From NCBI GenBank assembly GCA_000818095.1, contig CP009416.1, forward strand, positions 2,464,501 to 2,528,500: a stretch of 64,000 bases of DNA, read 5' to 3'. Under the pieces are notes generated by a model that was given only the letters and a program-made list of their open reading frames with translations, made no database searches and had not been told where the DNA came from. The translations under genes and the position numbers were made by a program. Shown here piece after piece: positions 22,734 to 42,063 of the stretch (its first letter is position 1; each line of letters starts with the position of its first letter). The DNA is from Jeotgalibacillus malaysiensis. GTDB taxonomy: Bacteria; Bacillota; Bacilli; Bacillales; Jeotgalibacillaceae.

Positions 22734-23063
22734 TCAGCACTTTATTCTTAACAGGTTATGCTCCTGAACCGGAAGCTCACCCAGTTCTTTAATTGCTTCT
22801 ACTAAAAGCGGGTAAAACGGGTCCTGTTCATTTAGCCGGAAATAATTCCACTGGCGGTCCTTCCGTTCAAGCACAATTCCCGCCTGCTTCATTACACGAA
22901 GATGTCGGCTGATCGCCGGCTGCGAAATCTGGAACATCTCAACAAATTCACATACACAATGCTCGCTCGTATACATCCTTCTCAGCATCTCTAGCCTGGT
23001 CGGATCCCCAAGCACTTTAAAAAATGCACTCATCTTCTCCACTCCCGGTGCAGTTGAAATCAT
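22734..23063 (-). CDS. arsR: ArsR/SmtB family arsenic-responsive repressor
   Basis: A 109-residue winged-helix repressor with FFKVLGDPTRLEML, the metalloid-binding EHCVCEF (C-V-C) in helix alpha-3, and the recognition helix QPAISRHLRVMKQAG. The start at 23063 is placed 7-8 bases after AAGGTGG; a GTG four codons earlier is within that site. Two identical-geometry operators, before arsR and before arsD, suggest autorepression and separate control of arsDA. Confidence 0.92.
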   Translation of the reverse strand: MISTAPGVEKMSAFFKVLGDPTRLEMLRRMYTSEHCVCEFVEMFQISQPAISRHLRVMKQAGIVLERKDRQWNYFRLNEQDPFYPLLVEAIKELGELPVQEHNLLRIKC

Positions 23064-23099
23064 CACCTCACCCACCTTCTAAAAAGTTTCTTTATTCAC

Positions 23100-23121
23100 T
23101 ATATAACAAATAGGTTATATA
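23100..23121. promoter_or_regulatory. ArsR-type operator upstream of arsR
   Basis: TATATAAC-N6-GTTATATA, 7-6-7 geometry identical to the site before arsD. Confidence 0.85.
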
Positions 23122-23307
23122 CGCTACCTGTTTATTAAAATGTTCATACATTTTTTTGCGTCAGTGGATTACCTATACCAACATCCATGATATTAAAAAC
23201 TAAATGATGTCGAATTAAAAACCTGATTCAAACGAGGATTCGTCAATTTTCTTATCTAATCTTTGGCACAATTTAATTAATCGTTTATGAAGGAGCTGAC
23301 AGTCACC

Positions 23308-23478
23308 ATGTATATTTTGCACAGGAAAAACAATGGTACTCATGAAGTATTAAAAGATTCACTTAACCGCGCATTCAGATTTTTTGTGAATCAGCAGGAG
23401 GCCAGCCAACTTTCAAGAAAGCTTAACCGGTATACGCAGAAGGAGAAGCAGTGGAGAGTGAAGAAGATCAATTTATAG
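23308..23478 (+). CDS. Small basic protein of unknown function
   Basis: A 56-residue lysine/arginine-rich frame (MYILHRKNNGTHEV at the start, QKEKQWRVKKINL at the end). AAGGAG lies 12 bases upstream, a long but usable spacing; an in-frame ATG seven codons earlier overlaps that site. No family recognised. It stands alone between arsR and the CNNM genes. Confidence 0.45.
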   Translation: MYILHRKNNGTHEVLKDSLNRAFRFFVNQQEASQLSRKLNRYTQKEKQWRVKKINL

Positions 23479-23488
23479 ATAAAAAATA

Positions 23489-23529
23489 AGGTGTATCCAA
23501 GGTGAAGTTTCCGTCCCTTTGATACACCT
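23489..23529 (-). terminator. Terminator of the CNNM gene pair
   Basis: Minus-strand stem AGGTGTATCAAAGG / CCTTGGATACACCT (one mismatch, 13-base loop) followed by TATTTTTTA. Confidence 0.75.
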
Positions 23530-23551
23530 CTATTTTCAGTAAACTAATAAT

Positions 23552-24568
23552 CTACTGCTCATTCATCCTTGGTAACACATGATTAAAAATATCATTCATC
23601 GTGATAATACCTAAAAACTCCGATCCATCCATCACAACAGCTAACTGCTCACTTGATTGCCGCATATTTGTAAGTGCTTCATGCAGAAGTGTGTCCGGCT
23701 GTATGACAAATGACGGCCGTGCCATGTTCCATGCAGGGCGGTCTTCCGGCTCCAGCAGCGTATCCCTAACATGAATGACGCGCGGAGGATTGCCGTCTTC
23801 TGCCATGACGAGAATCCGTTTGTGACCTGAACGCTGTGTTGCCTCTTGAACATCATATACAGTCGCATCGGATTCAACGGTTGTCAGAGGTGCTTTATCT
23901 GACAACACTTCACCAACTTTTAACGTTTCAAGATCCAGTGCACCTGAGATTGGTTTTCGGATCGAAGCGTCCAGTGCACCCACATTTGCCGAGTACTCAA
24001 CCAGCTGCCTGATCGTATCAGCATCCTGTCCCCCAACTGCTGCAGTTTCAACAGGCTCAACACCTGAAGCCTTTACCAATCGATTAGCTATACGATTCAC
24101 CCATACCAGCAGCGGTCTGAAAACGCCGATAAAAATACGGGCTGGCATGCCAACCATAATCGCAGAAGCTTCAGGATGTGCAATTGCCCATGATTTCGGA
24201 GCCATTTCCCCAATAACCAGATGCAGGAACGTAACAATCATCAGTGATAAGAAGAAAGCAGTTCCATCGGCCAGCCAATAAGGAAGTCCCGTCGCAGCAA
24301 ACAAGGGTGAAAACCAGTCATCTACAGCTGGTTTCGTAATCGCTCCGAGCGCAAATGTACACACTGTAATACCAAGCTGCGCACCTGCGAGCATCACTGT
24401 AAGTTCATTCACGGATTTTAAAGCAGCCCTCGCACCACGGCTAGAACGTGCTGCTTCTTCAAGTCGATGGCGTCTTGCACCGAGTAGAGCAAATTCAATG
24501 ATGACGAAAAATGCACTCAGTGCGATGATGGCAATTGTTACGACTATAATAACGAAGGGATTACCCAT
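23552..24568 (-). CDS. CNNM/CorC-type divalent cation transporter, second of pair
   Basis: A 338-residue protein with an N-terminal CNNM (DUF21) membrane domain of three to four helices (about 5-130), including the GAQLGITVCTFALGAITKP signature, then paired CBS domains (about 195-335). It lacks the C-terminal CorC-HlyC domain found in its neighbour. Start at 24568, eight bases inside the neighbour's end and 6-7 bases after GGAGGG, so translation is coupled. Homologues such as B. subtilis MpfA export magnesium. The two paralogues may work as a heteromer (inference). Confidence 0.9.
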   Translation of the reverse strand: MGNPFVIIVVTIAIIALSAFFVIIEFALLGARRHRLEEAARSSRGARAALKSVNELTVMLAGAQLGITVCTFALGAITKPAVDDWFSPLFAATGLPYWLADGTAFFLSLMIVTFLHLVIGEMAPKSWAIAHPEASAIMVGMPARIFIGVFRPLLVWVNRIANRLVKASGVEPVETAAVGGQDADTIRQLVEYSANVGALDASIRKPISGALDLETLKVGEVLSDKAPLTTVESDATVYDVQEATQRSGHKRILVMAEDGNPPRVIHVRDTLLEPEDRPAWNMARPSFVIQPDTLLHEALTNMRQSSEQLAVVMDGSEFLGIITMNDIFNHVLPRMNEQ

Positions 24569-25955
24569 GATCATCCCTCCTTACCTGTTCAGATTCATCT
24601 TCATTCTCCCGTTGTTCAATTGTAAGAGAAACCATGGTTGGTACCCATTTCTCAACTTCAATGATCTGTGCAATCAGATAACGTCTGACAGGTTCATCAT
24701 CCACCAGATCAGCCGGGTCTTCAGGAAGTTGAACTGTTACTTGTTCATTGACGGCAGGAAGTTTCCCGCTATGTGCAATGAGTAACCCTGCGATTGTTTT
24801 AAAATCACCACGCGGCAGTTGATAACCGATTTCCCGCTCAGCCTCATCGATATGAACATCCCCGGTCATCTGCCAGGAATCCTCCCCTTCAGATTCAACT
24901 ACTTCAACCTCTTCATTATCGTGCTCATCTGAAACCTCACCAACGACTTCCTCAGCCAGGTCTTCAATGGTCAGGATCCCAGTAAAGCCACCATATTCAT
25001 CAATGACACAGGCAAGATCATTTTTAGACTCACTCATCTGCTCCTGTGCTTCCGGCAAAGCCATTAGTGTCGGAACAACCAAGGGCGGTCTCATAATTGT
25101 CGTAACCGGATCATCTTCATTTAAAGATGAGGACAGGACATCGACAAGGTGAACAACACCAATCGGCTCATCATCTGAATTAACAACCGGATAACGCGTA
25201 TGCTCCTTTGCCATTAAGGTCCGGACTTCACCAATCGTTATGTCAGGTTCTACAATATCTGCCCGTGATCTGGGCGTCATTGCGTGTTCAACGTCACGTT
25301 GCGGAAAGTCGAGAATCCGATCAAGAAAAATTGACAGCTCCTTAGGCAAATCACCGCTGTCACGGGAGTCAGCTACGATATATTCCAAATCCCGTGCATT
25401 GGCACTGCTGTCAAGATCATGCACCGGCTCAATTCTGAGCATTTTTAAAAACTTATTGGCAGACTGATCGAAAAACTTAATCAGCCACCCGAAGATCATC
25501 AAATAAAAATTGGTTGATCTTGCAAGCCCTCGTGCCAATGGCTCAGGGTTTGCAATTGCAAGATTTTTAGGATAAAGCTCACCAAAAATCATCTGTACAA
25601 TCGTAGAAACAGCTAAAGCAAGCACTGTCCCTACAGAAATACTAACCGCTGCAGGAACTCCCGCCCCATCAAGCAACACACTTAAGCTCTCCCCAACAAG
25701 AGGTTCAGCTACATAACCAATTAAAAGGCCTGTCACAGTGATCCCGAGCTGTGCACCTGAAAGCATAAATGACGTCTGCTCCGTTACACTCAACGCACGC
25801 TTAGCTGATGCATCCCCCTGTTCAGCCATCGCGCGGAGCCGTGAGCGGTCAACAGACATATATGCAAATTCCTGGGCAACGAAATAGCCGTTTGCTGCGA
25901 TAATCGCTAGAATGACAATGATGCCGAGCAGTAAAGTCAATGTTGCAATTACCAT
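24561..25955 (-). CDS. CNNM/CorC-type divalent cation transporter, first of pair
   Basis: A 464-residue membrane protein: CNNM domain with GAQLGITVTGLLIGYVAEP (about 1-190), CBS pair with HAMTPRSRADIVEPD and DEYGGFTGILTIEDL (about 210-340), and C-terminal CorC-HlyC domain (about 355-440). Related to MpfA/YhdP magnesium exporters. The start ATG lies inside the last codons of an upstream 41-codon ORF, and its own ribosome site is poor (GGGTGGTGG region), so it probably depends on translation of that ORF. Confidence 0.92.
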   Translation of the reverse strand: MVIATLTLLLGIIVILAIIAANGYFVAQEFAYMSVDRSRLRAMAEQGDASAKRALSVTEQTSFMLSGAQLGITVTGLLIGYVAEPLVGESLSVLLDGAGVPAAVSISVGTVLALAVSTIVQMIFGELYPKNLAIANPEPLARGLARSTNFYLMIFGWLIKFFDQSANKFLKMLRIEPVHDLDSSANARDLEYIVADSRDSGDLPKELSIFLDRILDFPQRDVEHAMTPRSRADIVEPDITIGEVRTLMAKEHTRYPVVNSDDEPIGVVHLVDVLSSSLNEDDPVTTIMRPPLVVPTLMALPEAQEQMSESKNDLACVIDEYGGFTGILTIEDLAEEVVGEVSDEHDNEEVEVVESEGEDSWQMTGDVHIDEAEREIGYQLPRGDFKTIAGLLIAHSGKLPAVNEQVTVQLPEDPADLVDDEPVRRYLIAQIIEVEKWVPTMVSLTIEQRENEDESEQVRRDDHG

Positions 25956-26074
25956 ATGTGGTCCACCACCCTACTTAGCAGATCATGCTCATTAGCTTGG
26001 ACATCTGACCTGGCACTGCCCGAGTCAGGCTCATCAGGTTCGTAATTACTTGATGCGATTCGTTTTATATTCAT
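25949..26074 (-). CDS. Putative 41-residue leader peptide of the CNNM operon (contains EPDEPD)
   Basis: An ORF too short for usual calling: MNIKRIASSNYEPDEPDSGS at its start, ending DHIW with TAA two bases beyond the ATG of the CNNM gene. GGGGGA lies ten bases upstream of its ATG. The alternating acidic/proline segment E12-P-D-E-P-D17 resembles the segment of enterobacterial MgtL that destabilises ribosomes when magnesium is low. Overlap with the transporter start implies translational coupling. That it senses magnesium is inference; that the frame is open and coupled is directly visible. Confidence 0.5.
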   Translation of the reverse strand: MNIKRIASSNYEPDEPDSGSARSDVQANEHDLLSRVVDHIW

Positions 26075-26099
26075 CTCTTCAATTCCCCCAGCATAGTTA

Positions 26100-26442
26100 T
26101 TAATTTTAAGTCTAAGAAAAGTTCAGATTAAATGTAATCCGAGAGCTTACTAAATGTACTGAGAACCTTTACCCTGAATCCGTTTATACTAATCAATTTA
26201 GTAAAATCAGACATTCGTAATAGATGAATCATATGAAAGTTTCGTTTAAAGAGGGCTATGGAAATGGGTAATGCAACTTTCTATAATCGATTGGAGAGTG
26301 GTATGAAGTAATAAGGAAAAGTCATTGTGTATTTGAAGGGGAATTTTAACAAAATATAGCAATCTTAATTTAAAGTAGAGTGGTGGTCATTAAAACACCT
26401 AACTTTTAATAGACTGTCTTTTCTAAAATGAATTGAAGCATA
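26100..26442. other. Intergenic stretch with no recognisable gene
   Basis: AT-rich sequence between the CNNM leader and the distal island border. Short frames occur but none has both a ribosome site and a recognisable product. A promoter for the leader/CNNM operon must lie near 26090-26160 on the minus strand, but no confident hexamers were identified. Confidence 0.5.
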
Positions 26443-26489
26443 AAAAAACCACCAAATAATAATTTGGTGGAGACAGTGGGAGTTGAACC
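26443..26489 (-). repeat. Distal attachment repeat: duplicated tmRNA tail with terminator
   Basis: Contains the hairpin CCACCAAAT..ATTTGGTGG with its T-run (minus strand), then the tmRNA acceptor/T-arm region with AGACAGTGGGAGTTGAACCC. It differs from 41684-41730 by a few substitutions. It lacks the rest of tmRNA, as expected for the far att site of an element integrated in ssrA. Confidence 0.88.
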
Positions 26490-26624
26490 CCGCGACCGAT
26501 GGTTTAATATTTTTCATAGGCACACTAAAAATATAAGAAGTATTCAATTCATTTCTATTAATAAATGCAATTAAAAAGTAACTCCTATAAATAATTCACA
26601 TTTCACTACTCAAGCTATAAGTAA

Positions 26625-27725
26625 TTAATTGTTCTCAATCATGTCCTTAATGGCAGACAAAGCAAACGTATCTTCAATTAAACTCTTTATTTCTCTTACA
26701 CTTTGACATTCGTTAAAACTAATCGTTAATTTTTCATAAGTTTTAGAACTTAATTCGTTATCGTATATATCATTCAAATCATCATAAATCTTTGTACCAA
26801 TTGTTTGTTTAGCTTCATCAGTTAAATCATTAAATTGGACTATATTATCAAACCTACTATAAATAGCACTTCCTAGATGATCTTGTACTTCATTTAAGTT
26901 CTTATAGTTAGACGTACAAATGATAACGGACTTTTTCAAATTAAGATGATAATTTTGATCCTCATAAATACCTTCATCAAATAATTGATAAAATGCACTA
27001 TGAAATGATGTATGGGCTTTGTCAAATTCGTCTAACAAAATTATATTTGATTCTCTATCTAACAGATCTTTAGCAAAACTTTTTTCATAGTGAGCGCCTC
27101 CAAATAAATAGGTAGAAAATTGACTGTTTTAGAACATAGAAAATTGTTTTCTAAATAAAGTTTCTCCTACAACCTCCGCAAGATATTTAGCAGTTTCAGT
27201 TTTGCCAATACCTGAGCTGCCATACAATAGGATGATCACAGGTTTTTCTCTTGAAGGTAATGTTAATGGATAAAGTGATTGTAACAATTCGTATTTCACA
27301 TGTTCTTGACCAATTATTTCAGAATCGTAATTGTAATTAATTTCTTTTAAATCTTCTAAGGTTAAAGAAGCATAATTTTGACTTATAGTTTCAACATCTA
27401 TATTTAACTTTTGAATTTGCTCACTAATTTGTAGAGGCGGATTATGTAAATACACATTATTCGAGTTGAACTTATTAAGAAAATTACTAAAGTTTACTAT
27501 TACGTGTTCTCTTACTCCGGCATACTCTCCAGATTCAGCTATAAAATTTTCAACAAATATACGTTCCTTGTTTTCATTATCCTCTTTCTGATCATTTAGA
27601 TTTATCACAATTCCCTTGTTATCTTGATCAATTTTGTAAACTAATTCTGTTAAGGTACTATATTTATCGGGTAGAATTTTATTAAATTCTCTTTTTGATC
27701 CATAAAAAATTGTAATTTTATTCAC
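26625..27725 (-). pseudogene. AAA+ ATPase (ClpA/ClpB-like module) with in-frame stop
   Basis: One reading frame of 366 codons interrupted only by a TAA at 27129-27131 (QFSMF-stop-NSQFS). Upstream half: about 150 unfamiliar residues, then the AAA module with IIGQEHVKYELLQSL and Walker A YGSSGIGKTETAKYLAE. Downstream half: the Clp-type LFGGAHYE segment, Walker B ILLDEFDKAH and sensor-1 IICTSNY. The GTG start overlaps the end of the gene before it by 8 bases. A C-to-T change in a CAA codon would explain the stop. Unless read through, the product lacks Walker B. Confidence 0.85.
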
Positions 27726-41683: not shown

Positions 41684-41711
41684 AAAAAACCACCAAATAT
41701 ATATTTGGTGG
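41684..41711 (-). terminator. Terminator of ssrA, overlapping the tmRNA 3' end
   Basis: Stem CCACCAAATAT / ATATTTGGTGG followed on the minus strand by GTTTTTTATT. The CCA end of tmRNA is part of the stem. Confidence 0.88.
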
Positions 41712-42063
41712 AGACGGTGGGAGTCGAACCCACGTCCAGAAACTTCAATACTTAAGCTTCTACGAGCGTAGTCAGCCTATTCGCATTTCACCGTAACTTA
41801 TGCCAACTGACAGGCGTCCGAACGGCTATCCTGATTAGTCTCTTCAGGCTGCTTCAGGTGGCAGCAGACTGCGTATCCCACTATAAGTGAACCTCAGGCA
41901 GGTCTACATGGGCGATAGACAAGTGAGGCCTCAAGTGCTTATTAGGCAGCTAGAGCGTAATCTTGTTTGTTGTTAACTATTTTTGTTGACGTTGATGACG
42001 GAGACGATCCCTCCGACTCGCAACTCAAGCTCGAACCATTCCTGTCGAATCCGTAACGTCCCC
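41706..42063 (-). ncRNA. ssrA: Transfer-messenger RNA
   Basis: The minus strand starts GGGGACGTTACGGATTCGAC and ends with the T-arm/acceptor GGTTCGACTCCCACCGTCTCC-ACCA, the paired ends of a tRNA-Ala-like domain, 358 bases long. The tag frame reads NNKQDYALAA then TAA TAA (near 42000-41940), the usual YALAA degradation tag. It rescues stalled ribosomes with SmpB, encoded 125 bases upstream. Its 3' end is the insertion site of the neighbouring island. Confidence 0.97.

Follow-up and report, generated by a model that had tools for sequence, protein, structure and literature searches.

A short leader ORF overlapping the start of putative CNNM exporter genes in Bacillota, Actinomycetota and Pseudomonadota, and its possible role as a counterpart of MgtL

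Introduction

Control of transport genes by leaders that destabilize the translating ribosome is known, in the literature searched, from enterobacterial importers. The short leader ORF mgtL, located ahead of the Mg2+ transport gene mgtA, encodes a destabilizing EPDP motif at which ribosomes drop off when Mg2+ is limiting, and as described in PMC11282234 it acts on Rho-dependent transcription termination of an importer gene, drop-off being the on-state. In Salmonella, mgtB is preceded by the small ORF mgtQ, in which Asp2 and Glu5 reduce its own translation, the Mg2+ transporter being controlled translationally; reduced MgtQ translation raises the transporter through alternative stem-loops formed between mgtC and mgtB (PMC8092293, section 10). 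With regard to CorC-domain genes, mgpA (yoaE) and corC of Salmonella are reported to be induced by high Mg2+ (PMC12421838). In E. coli and Salmonella, yoaE/mgpA is preceded by yoaL, encoding a 52-aa leader, the end of which overlaps the start of the CorC-domain gene by 13 nt. Conversion of the YoaL start codon into a stop reportedly lowers MgpA, and the tie of YoaL-YoaE(MgpA) to high Mg2+ is given as the authors' own hypothesis (PMC12421838). For CorC (YbeX), the same source proposes that early abortion of translation limits the protein at low Mg2+, the destabilizing N-terminal sequence being part of the protein itself, with no leader, and it states that the regulation of CorC-domain Mg2+ exporters is unclear even in Salmonella.

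In this study, we analysed a window of 64,000 nt from Jeotgalibacillus malaysiensis (GenBank CP009416.1, positions 2,464,501 to 2,528,500), in which a 41-codon frame overlaps the start of a presumed CNNM-type exporter gene. A sequence-only reading had connected an E-P-D-E-P-D run early in this frame with the MgtL type of control and had stated that no leader of this kind was known for CNNM genes. The literature searched (covering few subscription papers) contains no leader ORF for a CNNM gene either, but a close precedent is YoaL, which precedes the CorC-domain gene yoaE/mgpA. Likened to MgtL by description, the locus has a short leader ORF with a motif of the destabilizing type ahead of a presumed Mg2+ transport gene, but since this gene presumably encodes an exporter, drop-off would be expected to act as an off-switch; the sign expected is likewise opposite to that of MgtQ. 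In contrast to the locus in the window, the membrane domain of YoaE is TerC and not CNNM, and YoaL (MDRHRRHFSIRPF...) is basic and carries no acidic/proline run.

Exporter genes and leader ORF in the window

All features described here are located on the minus strand. The gene downstream of the leader (24561..25955) encodes a protein of 464 aa with a CNNM transmembrane domain, a CBS pair and a CorC_HlyC domain (Pfam PF01595, PF00571 and PF03471), which has relatives of solved structure in the PDB (7m1t, 7m1u, 4hg0 and others). CNNM and CBS (+CorC_HlyC) domains are also found in archaeal CorB and CorC, and MpfA of Staphylococcus aureus is a further protein of this type. The cargo is presumably a metal ion, probably Mg2+. 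A second CNNM/CBS gene of 340 aa (23552..24574), identified from the ORF list and Pfam, overlaps the first by 14 nt; its counterpart in J. terrae (G007:C13:10750-11754) showed one in-frame TAA in the match and is possibly decayed or split. On the Arthrobacter plasmid pLDW-10, the CNNM pair has a TerC-family gene (L245 1-845) upstream of it, and in Pseudomonas peli the CNNM match is followed by a terC RNA match (L062 4158-4210); with such neighbours, the exporter may handle an ion other than Mg2+. The CNNM subfamily is rare, being found in five of 12 Jeotgalibacillus genomes (E 1e-100) and, in a sample of 398 genomes drawn from the class, in the genome of the window alone (E 1e-120).

An ORF scan placed the leader ORF at 25949..26074, with 41 codons, an ATG start and a TAA within the first codons of the exporter; its translation reads MNIKRIASSNYEPDEPDSGSARSDVQANEHDLLSRVVDHIW. 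The Shine-Dalgarno (SD) sequence GGGGGA (26084..26089) lies 9 nt 5' of the leader ATG, at a site where most close relatives have GGAGGA, and this variant fails the strict SD pattern used below and passes the wider one. Start and stop overlap in ATGGTAA (25949..25955), the exporter ATG occupying 25955-25953 and the leader TAA 25951-25949, so that the TAA begins one base past the ATG and 7 nt are common to both genes. The ORF thus has a start codon with an SD, is short and ends with a stop that overlaps the start of the next gene, as is typical for a leader ORF. Up to this point, the sequence-only reading was accurate as to the frame, the GGGGGA ahead of it and the EPDEPD at residues 12-17 (codons at 26024..26041), which the translation bears out; it was also right about the overlap, but had put the stop two bases beyond the ATG. 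Its assumption that the exporter has a weak ribosome site of its own is not borne out, since the exporter SD AGGGTGGTG, located within the leader ORF (25964..25972), gave a duplex energy of -11.5 kcal/mol versus -8.4 kcal/mol for the leader SD, both calculated with an assumed 16S tail sequence. A Pfam search with the leader peptide resulted in no match.

Upstream of the leader region, we observed a short sequence (26478-26490) that repeats the 3' end of tmRNA and carries a terminator-like hairpin, while a full ssrA gene is located at 41706-42063, about 15 kb from the short copy. Based on these two sequences, ssrA seems to be the integration site of an island. The tmRNA tag assigned by ARAGORN at 41706-42063, VRTPVSWHKLR, seems unlike a usual Bacillota tag and may be misplaced. 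In the relatives L008 and L009, tmRNA sequence is found directly upstream of the leader. Furthermore, a block GGT(T)CTCAGTACAT...TAAGC at about 26143-26176 upstream of the leader is, by eye and with variation, common to the five Jeotgalibacillus loci and could be a promoter or a binding site.

Conservation of the leader in Bacillota

All 16 deduplicated Bacillota loci, which derive from Jeotgalibacillus, Halobacillus, Metabacillus, Marinococcus and Salinicoccus with its family, have a short ORF (24-53 codons) that terminates at the start of the exporter gene. The overlap was of the type ATGn-stop in 13 of them, ATGA in two (L048 and L049) and TGATG in one (L045). To be counted, an ORF had to carry an SD, to be 18-70 codons long and to overlap or adjoin the start of the exporter, and chance was estimated by resampling the upstream DNA with dinucleotide steps; 158 of the 159 deduplicated loci entered this count, L229 being left out for want of a start codon. 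With the wider SD pattern, 16 of 16 Bacillota loci were observed versus 1.3 expected by chance, and with the strict pattern 15 of 16, the leader of the window with its change from GGAGGA to GGGGGA being the exception. Among CNNM paralogs of the same order, which are about 26-32% identical to the window protein, such an ORF was detected in only one of 28, this control consisting of those listed paralogs for which loci were returned (L010 has no testable start codon). The leader is therefore typical of this subfamily and not of CNNM genes in general.

In the leaders of close relatives, all changes in length are in-frame; those of Salinicoccus and Marinococcus have dissimilar peptide sequences. 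A search with the leader peptide against 61 genomes recovered the leader itself and, in other genomes, two weak matches (E 0.8-0.9). As the leader can barely be found by protein search, synteny with the exporter is required to locate orthologous leaders.

At the codon level, pN/pS over codons 2-36 of the seven closest leaders was 0.63 (bootstrap 95% CI 0.46-0.87; 0.4% of replicates reach 1), compared to 0.95 and 1.06 in the other two frames and to 0.10 for codons 4-120 of the exporter in the same group. Eight lineage groups were covered by this test, which does not include the Salinicoccus/Marinococcus, alphaproteobacterial, Gordonia-type and Micrococcus-type leaders, and in seven of the eight the leader frame had the lowest pN/pS of the three. 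Values were 0.34-0.35 in the two mycobacterial-type groups, and margins were narrow in the Vibrio group (0.62 vs 0.72) and the Pseudomonas peli group (0.70 vs 0.74). The exception was the Pseudomonas mendocina-type group, with little divergence, in which the leader frame showed 0.92 and another frame 0.40. Since this constraint is real but weak, the leader peptide seems to matter somewhat, though much less than the exporter. Altogether, frame and overlap are kept in all 16 Bacillota orthologs, along with a frame-specific codon constraint that is weak in the group of the window. Frame-breaking indels or stops and a lack of codon-level conservation, which according to the sequence-only reading would have spoken against a leader, were not encountered in these orthologs.

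Leaders in other phyla

SD-bearing ORFs at the exporter start were also identified in 31 of 46 loci of Gammaproteobacteria (4.3 expected), 12 of 17 of Alphaproteobacteria (2.5 expected) and 39 of 79 of Actinomycetota (8.1 expected); by the same criteria they were absent from 15, five and 40 loci, respectively. When the SD requirement was dropped, ORFs were found in 44 gammaproteobacterial, 16 alphaproteobacterial and 59 actinobacterial loci. Because the ATGA overlap is partly fixed by the second codon of the exporter, the informative part of these ORFs is the open frame upstream. By the initial ORF criteria, 16 of the 159 deduplicated loci had no ORF, and four of these 16 possess a frame opened by CTG. 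In the Arthrobacter loci L050, L055, L063 and L172, which have no ATG, GTG or TTG start, a 39-codon frame with GSSDDPSHCC that ends in NTGA extends from -116 to +1 of the exporter start; it opens with CTG right after a stop, so that a CTG start is possible. In leaders of Alphaproteobacteria and Microbacteriaceae, we assigned a GTG start that lacks an SD at a suitable position and is possibly incorrect, these loci having GTGGAC in common, and in Pseudomonas and Marinobacter the start is either ATG or GTG. The Micrococcaceae loci L181-L184, L188-L190, L194 and L195 show a leader pattern unlike that of other Micrococcaceae. Two plasmid records that we inspected list no gene at the position of the leader in their incomplete feature tables.

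Applied to 30 leaders, a 9-residue gammaproteobacterial profile scored J. alimentarius (p 0.002), L054 (p 0.008), J. terrae (p 0.012) and L058 (p 0.015), whereas it did not match the leader of the window (p 0.58). As the window leader does not score, peptide homology across phyla is only suggestive, and one ancestral peptide motif was rejected.

The acidic/proline run

Glu12 is invariant among the seven close leaders, and an acidic residue is found at position 15 in six of them and at position 17 also in six, while Pro13 and Pro16 occur solely in the leader of the window and are replaced by Thr, Ser or Ala in the other six. The acidic positions 12, 15 and 17 of the run proposed by the sequence-only reading are thus mostly kept, but its prolines are window-specific, and EPDEPD as such is, by the sequences compared, private to this genome. 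In the window leader, residues 12-17 form an acidic/proline run that falls within the N-terminal 20-30 or so residues, as expected of an MgtL-type leader from section 9 of PMC11282234. In E. coli, acidic residues combined with proline near the beginning of the chain make ribosomes pause or drop off. According to that section, a designed NKDEPD after Met renders expression in E. coli EttA-dependent, also with 10 residues ahead of it and hardly with 20; 10 residues ahead put DEPD at residues 14-17, the exact place it has in the window leader. For Bacillus subtilis, stalling of ribosomes on (DP)5 linkers in cells without EF-P is reported (PMC11381351).

Acidic/proline N-termini were also found in distant leaders, namely DPEPGRLRR in Marinobacter, MDSFVDPDPATYS and MEPFVDPSPARPC in the Pseudomonas type, MDSDKPGPDTAPRT and MDSHRPRPDT in Mycobacteriaceae, GSSDDPGDSC in the Arthrobacter type, and EAPDSQPSND in Halobacillus. 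Of 43 leaders (hand-picked, with starts set by eye, one to several per lineage and hence not independent), 14 contain an acid/Pro cluster within residues 1-20 according to a cluster pattern devised after the leaders had been viewed, versus five of 272 ordinary long-ORF N-termini (0/45 long ORFs of the window and 5/227 of relatives). Residue shuffles of the same 43 leaders gave a mean of 4.3 clusters, and none of 2000 reached 14. Three of 15 Bacillota leaders showed the cluster. In five of seven Salinicoccus/Marinococcus leaders, the first 20 residues carry no net negative charge, the leaders of L045 and L161 each contain a single acidic residue in this part, and the leader on the V. campbellii plasmid lacks the otherwise common Asp2. 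In the set of 42 leaders used for charge and enrichment, picked in the same manner, proline was not enriched over nucleotide shuffles (p 0.2). As the acid enrichment that this set does show over such shuffles is partly typical of any coding frame and proline is not enriched, it is the cluster test that carries the acid/Pro argument. Overall, the idea of an acidic/proline leader is backed by distant leaders, but is limited by the genome-specific EPDEPD, the few clusters in Bacillota and the Salinicoccus/Marinococcus leaders without net negative charge. Near relatives weaken the reading of EPDEPD as magnesium-related and distant ones strengthen it; we consider it plausible. In addition, many leaders have a Cys after Asp-Pro (QDPDHC, DDPGDSC, DPNSSRLC, DDPSHCC); several loci have Arg or other residues instead, and the window leader has no Cys.

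RNA structure at the exporter start

Using RNAalifold and pair counts over eight loci, a small hairpin GTGG-TGGA-CCAC was predicted at 25958..25969, which holds part of the exporter SD right before the ATG; the consensus hairpin matching it had 90.6% of cells paired. For the RNAalifold structure of the eight Bacillota loci, 87.5% of cells were paired versus 82.2% in shuffles (0/500), the structure being derived from the same alignment, and its consensus energy was only -3.97 kcal/mol. Burial of the exporter SD in the group of the window was not above that of shuffles (mean z +0.37; window rank 0.95). Over 61 loci analysed in group subsets, the SD tended to be more buried than in shuffles in three groups, that of Vibrio and two of mycobacterial type (mean z about -1), and the remaining seven, including that of the window, showed little or no such effect.

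In Vibrio-type leaders, codons complementary to the exporter SD showed 85.2% of cells paired versus 44-62% when slid; shuffles of this group reached that complementarity in 158 of 500 cases, with no significant covariation, and RNAalifold predicted nothing. Complementarity to the exporter SD was also noticed by eye in mycobacterial-type leaders, and actinobacterial leaders contain a GC hairpin, GGGTCGTCCGACGACCC. In the three of these Micrococcaceae loci that were folded, L181, L184 and L188, a strong hairpin of about 10 bp is predicted upstream of the exporter (CGCAGTGCT...AGCACTGCG in L181). A single RNA stem across lineages was rejected based on the Vibrio pairing being matched by shuffles, the empty RNAalifold prediction and the uneven SD burial. 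A riboswitch at the leader site was likewise rejected, as Rfam searches of positions 23000-27000 (E up to 5) revealed three sub-threshold matches, none of them at the leader, and no family at the leader site of 18 relatives at the gathering threshold.

Discussion

We regard the 41-codon frame as a real leader ORF that is conserved across several phyla. A stop that overlaps the next start and an SD located within the leader make up the typical layout of translationally coupled genes, so that coupling is well supported, and it is quite likely that exporter translation is coupled to that of the leader; as the exporter SD is strong on its own and not specially buried, this coupling may be partial. 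Coupling by RNA unfolding or by reinitiation is described in PMC12548453, where spacings of -4 and -1 nt are common, compared to -7 in the window. What we infer is translation of the leader, coupling and reinitiation, while the magnesium signal is a conjecture.

With moderate confidence, we propose that the leader is translated and that exporter synthesis depends on its completion, with early drop-off, possibly at low Mg2+, as a plausible off-switch. Ribosomes would load at the leader's own SD, and those reaching the leader stop would traverse the small hairpin that holds part of the exporter SD and, at ATGGTAA, either reinitiate on the exporter start or open it, so that exporter output would be a function of the ribosomes completing the leader. 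The early chain, acidic and in many lineages proline-containing, may destabilize or pause ribosomes; under destabilizing conditions, for which low Mg2+ would be the best candidate, less exporter would be made, and with ample Mg2+ the exporter would be produced. The choice of Mg2+ as the signal, extrapolated from MgtL and MgtQ, is tentative.

The leader might also couple without sensing, i.e., simply deliver ribosomes with a nearly irrelevant peptide. Position, SD and overlap are far better kept than the peptide, which ranges from 24 to 53 codons and is dissimilar in Salinicoccus and Marinococcus, and a pN/pS of 0.63 is weak; against this, the leader frame has the lowest pN/pS in seven of eight groups, down to the mycobacterial-type values, and acid/Pro and D-P...C patterns recur, so that plain coupling is conceivable rather than probable. 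These recurring patterns could alternatively belong to a sensor that responds to another signal by arrest or pausing, e.g., EF-P/ABC-F status, another metal or a charged tRNA, with D-P...C as the sensor. Such a sensor would suit the Cys after Asp-Pro in many leaders and the Vibrio-type fold, whose exporter SD would be freed by ribosome pausing on the 5' arm, but the Cys is exchanged in several loci and missing from the window leader, to which the gammaproteobacterial profile does not extend either, and we consider it unlikely.

If, on the other hand, a riboswitch or protein site in the RNA were conserved and the ORF its by-product, the eight-locus structure above shuffles (though from the same alignment), the actinobacterial GC hairpin and the GTGGAC without a well-placed SD would find an explanation. 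Such an element is improbable in view of the frame-specific constraint, the SD ahead of Bacillota leaders, the lack of an Rfam family at the site, the low consensus energy and the missing prediction for Vibrio. A small protein acting on the exporter or elsewhere would be in keeping with the codon constraint and with a location directly ahead of the exporter in all 16 Bacillota loci; its variable length, poorly conserved sequence and lack of a Pfam match, together with the absence, by eye, of a membrane segment from the window leader (that of L045 begins hydrophobic), make it very improbable. Finally, the private nature of EPDEPD would be in line with a chance ORF, but as regards position this is refuted by 16 of 16 loci versus 1.3 expected and by one of 28 paralogs, leaving it virtually negligible.

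Returning to the translated leader with drop-off as the off-switch, its widest form would be a leader family in Bacillota, Actinomycetota and Pseudomonadota that, via start/stop coupling, stops CNNM-mediated Mg2+ export when ribosomes drop off at low Mg2+, as a mirror image of MgtL; in this full form we hold it to be rather doubtful. With a conserved leader placed directly on CNNM genes of Gram-positive, actinobacterial and proteobacterial genomes, the question becomes one that can be addressed with reporters. If true, ribosome stability would serve as a metal sensor in both directions.
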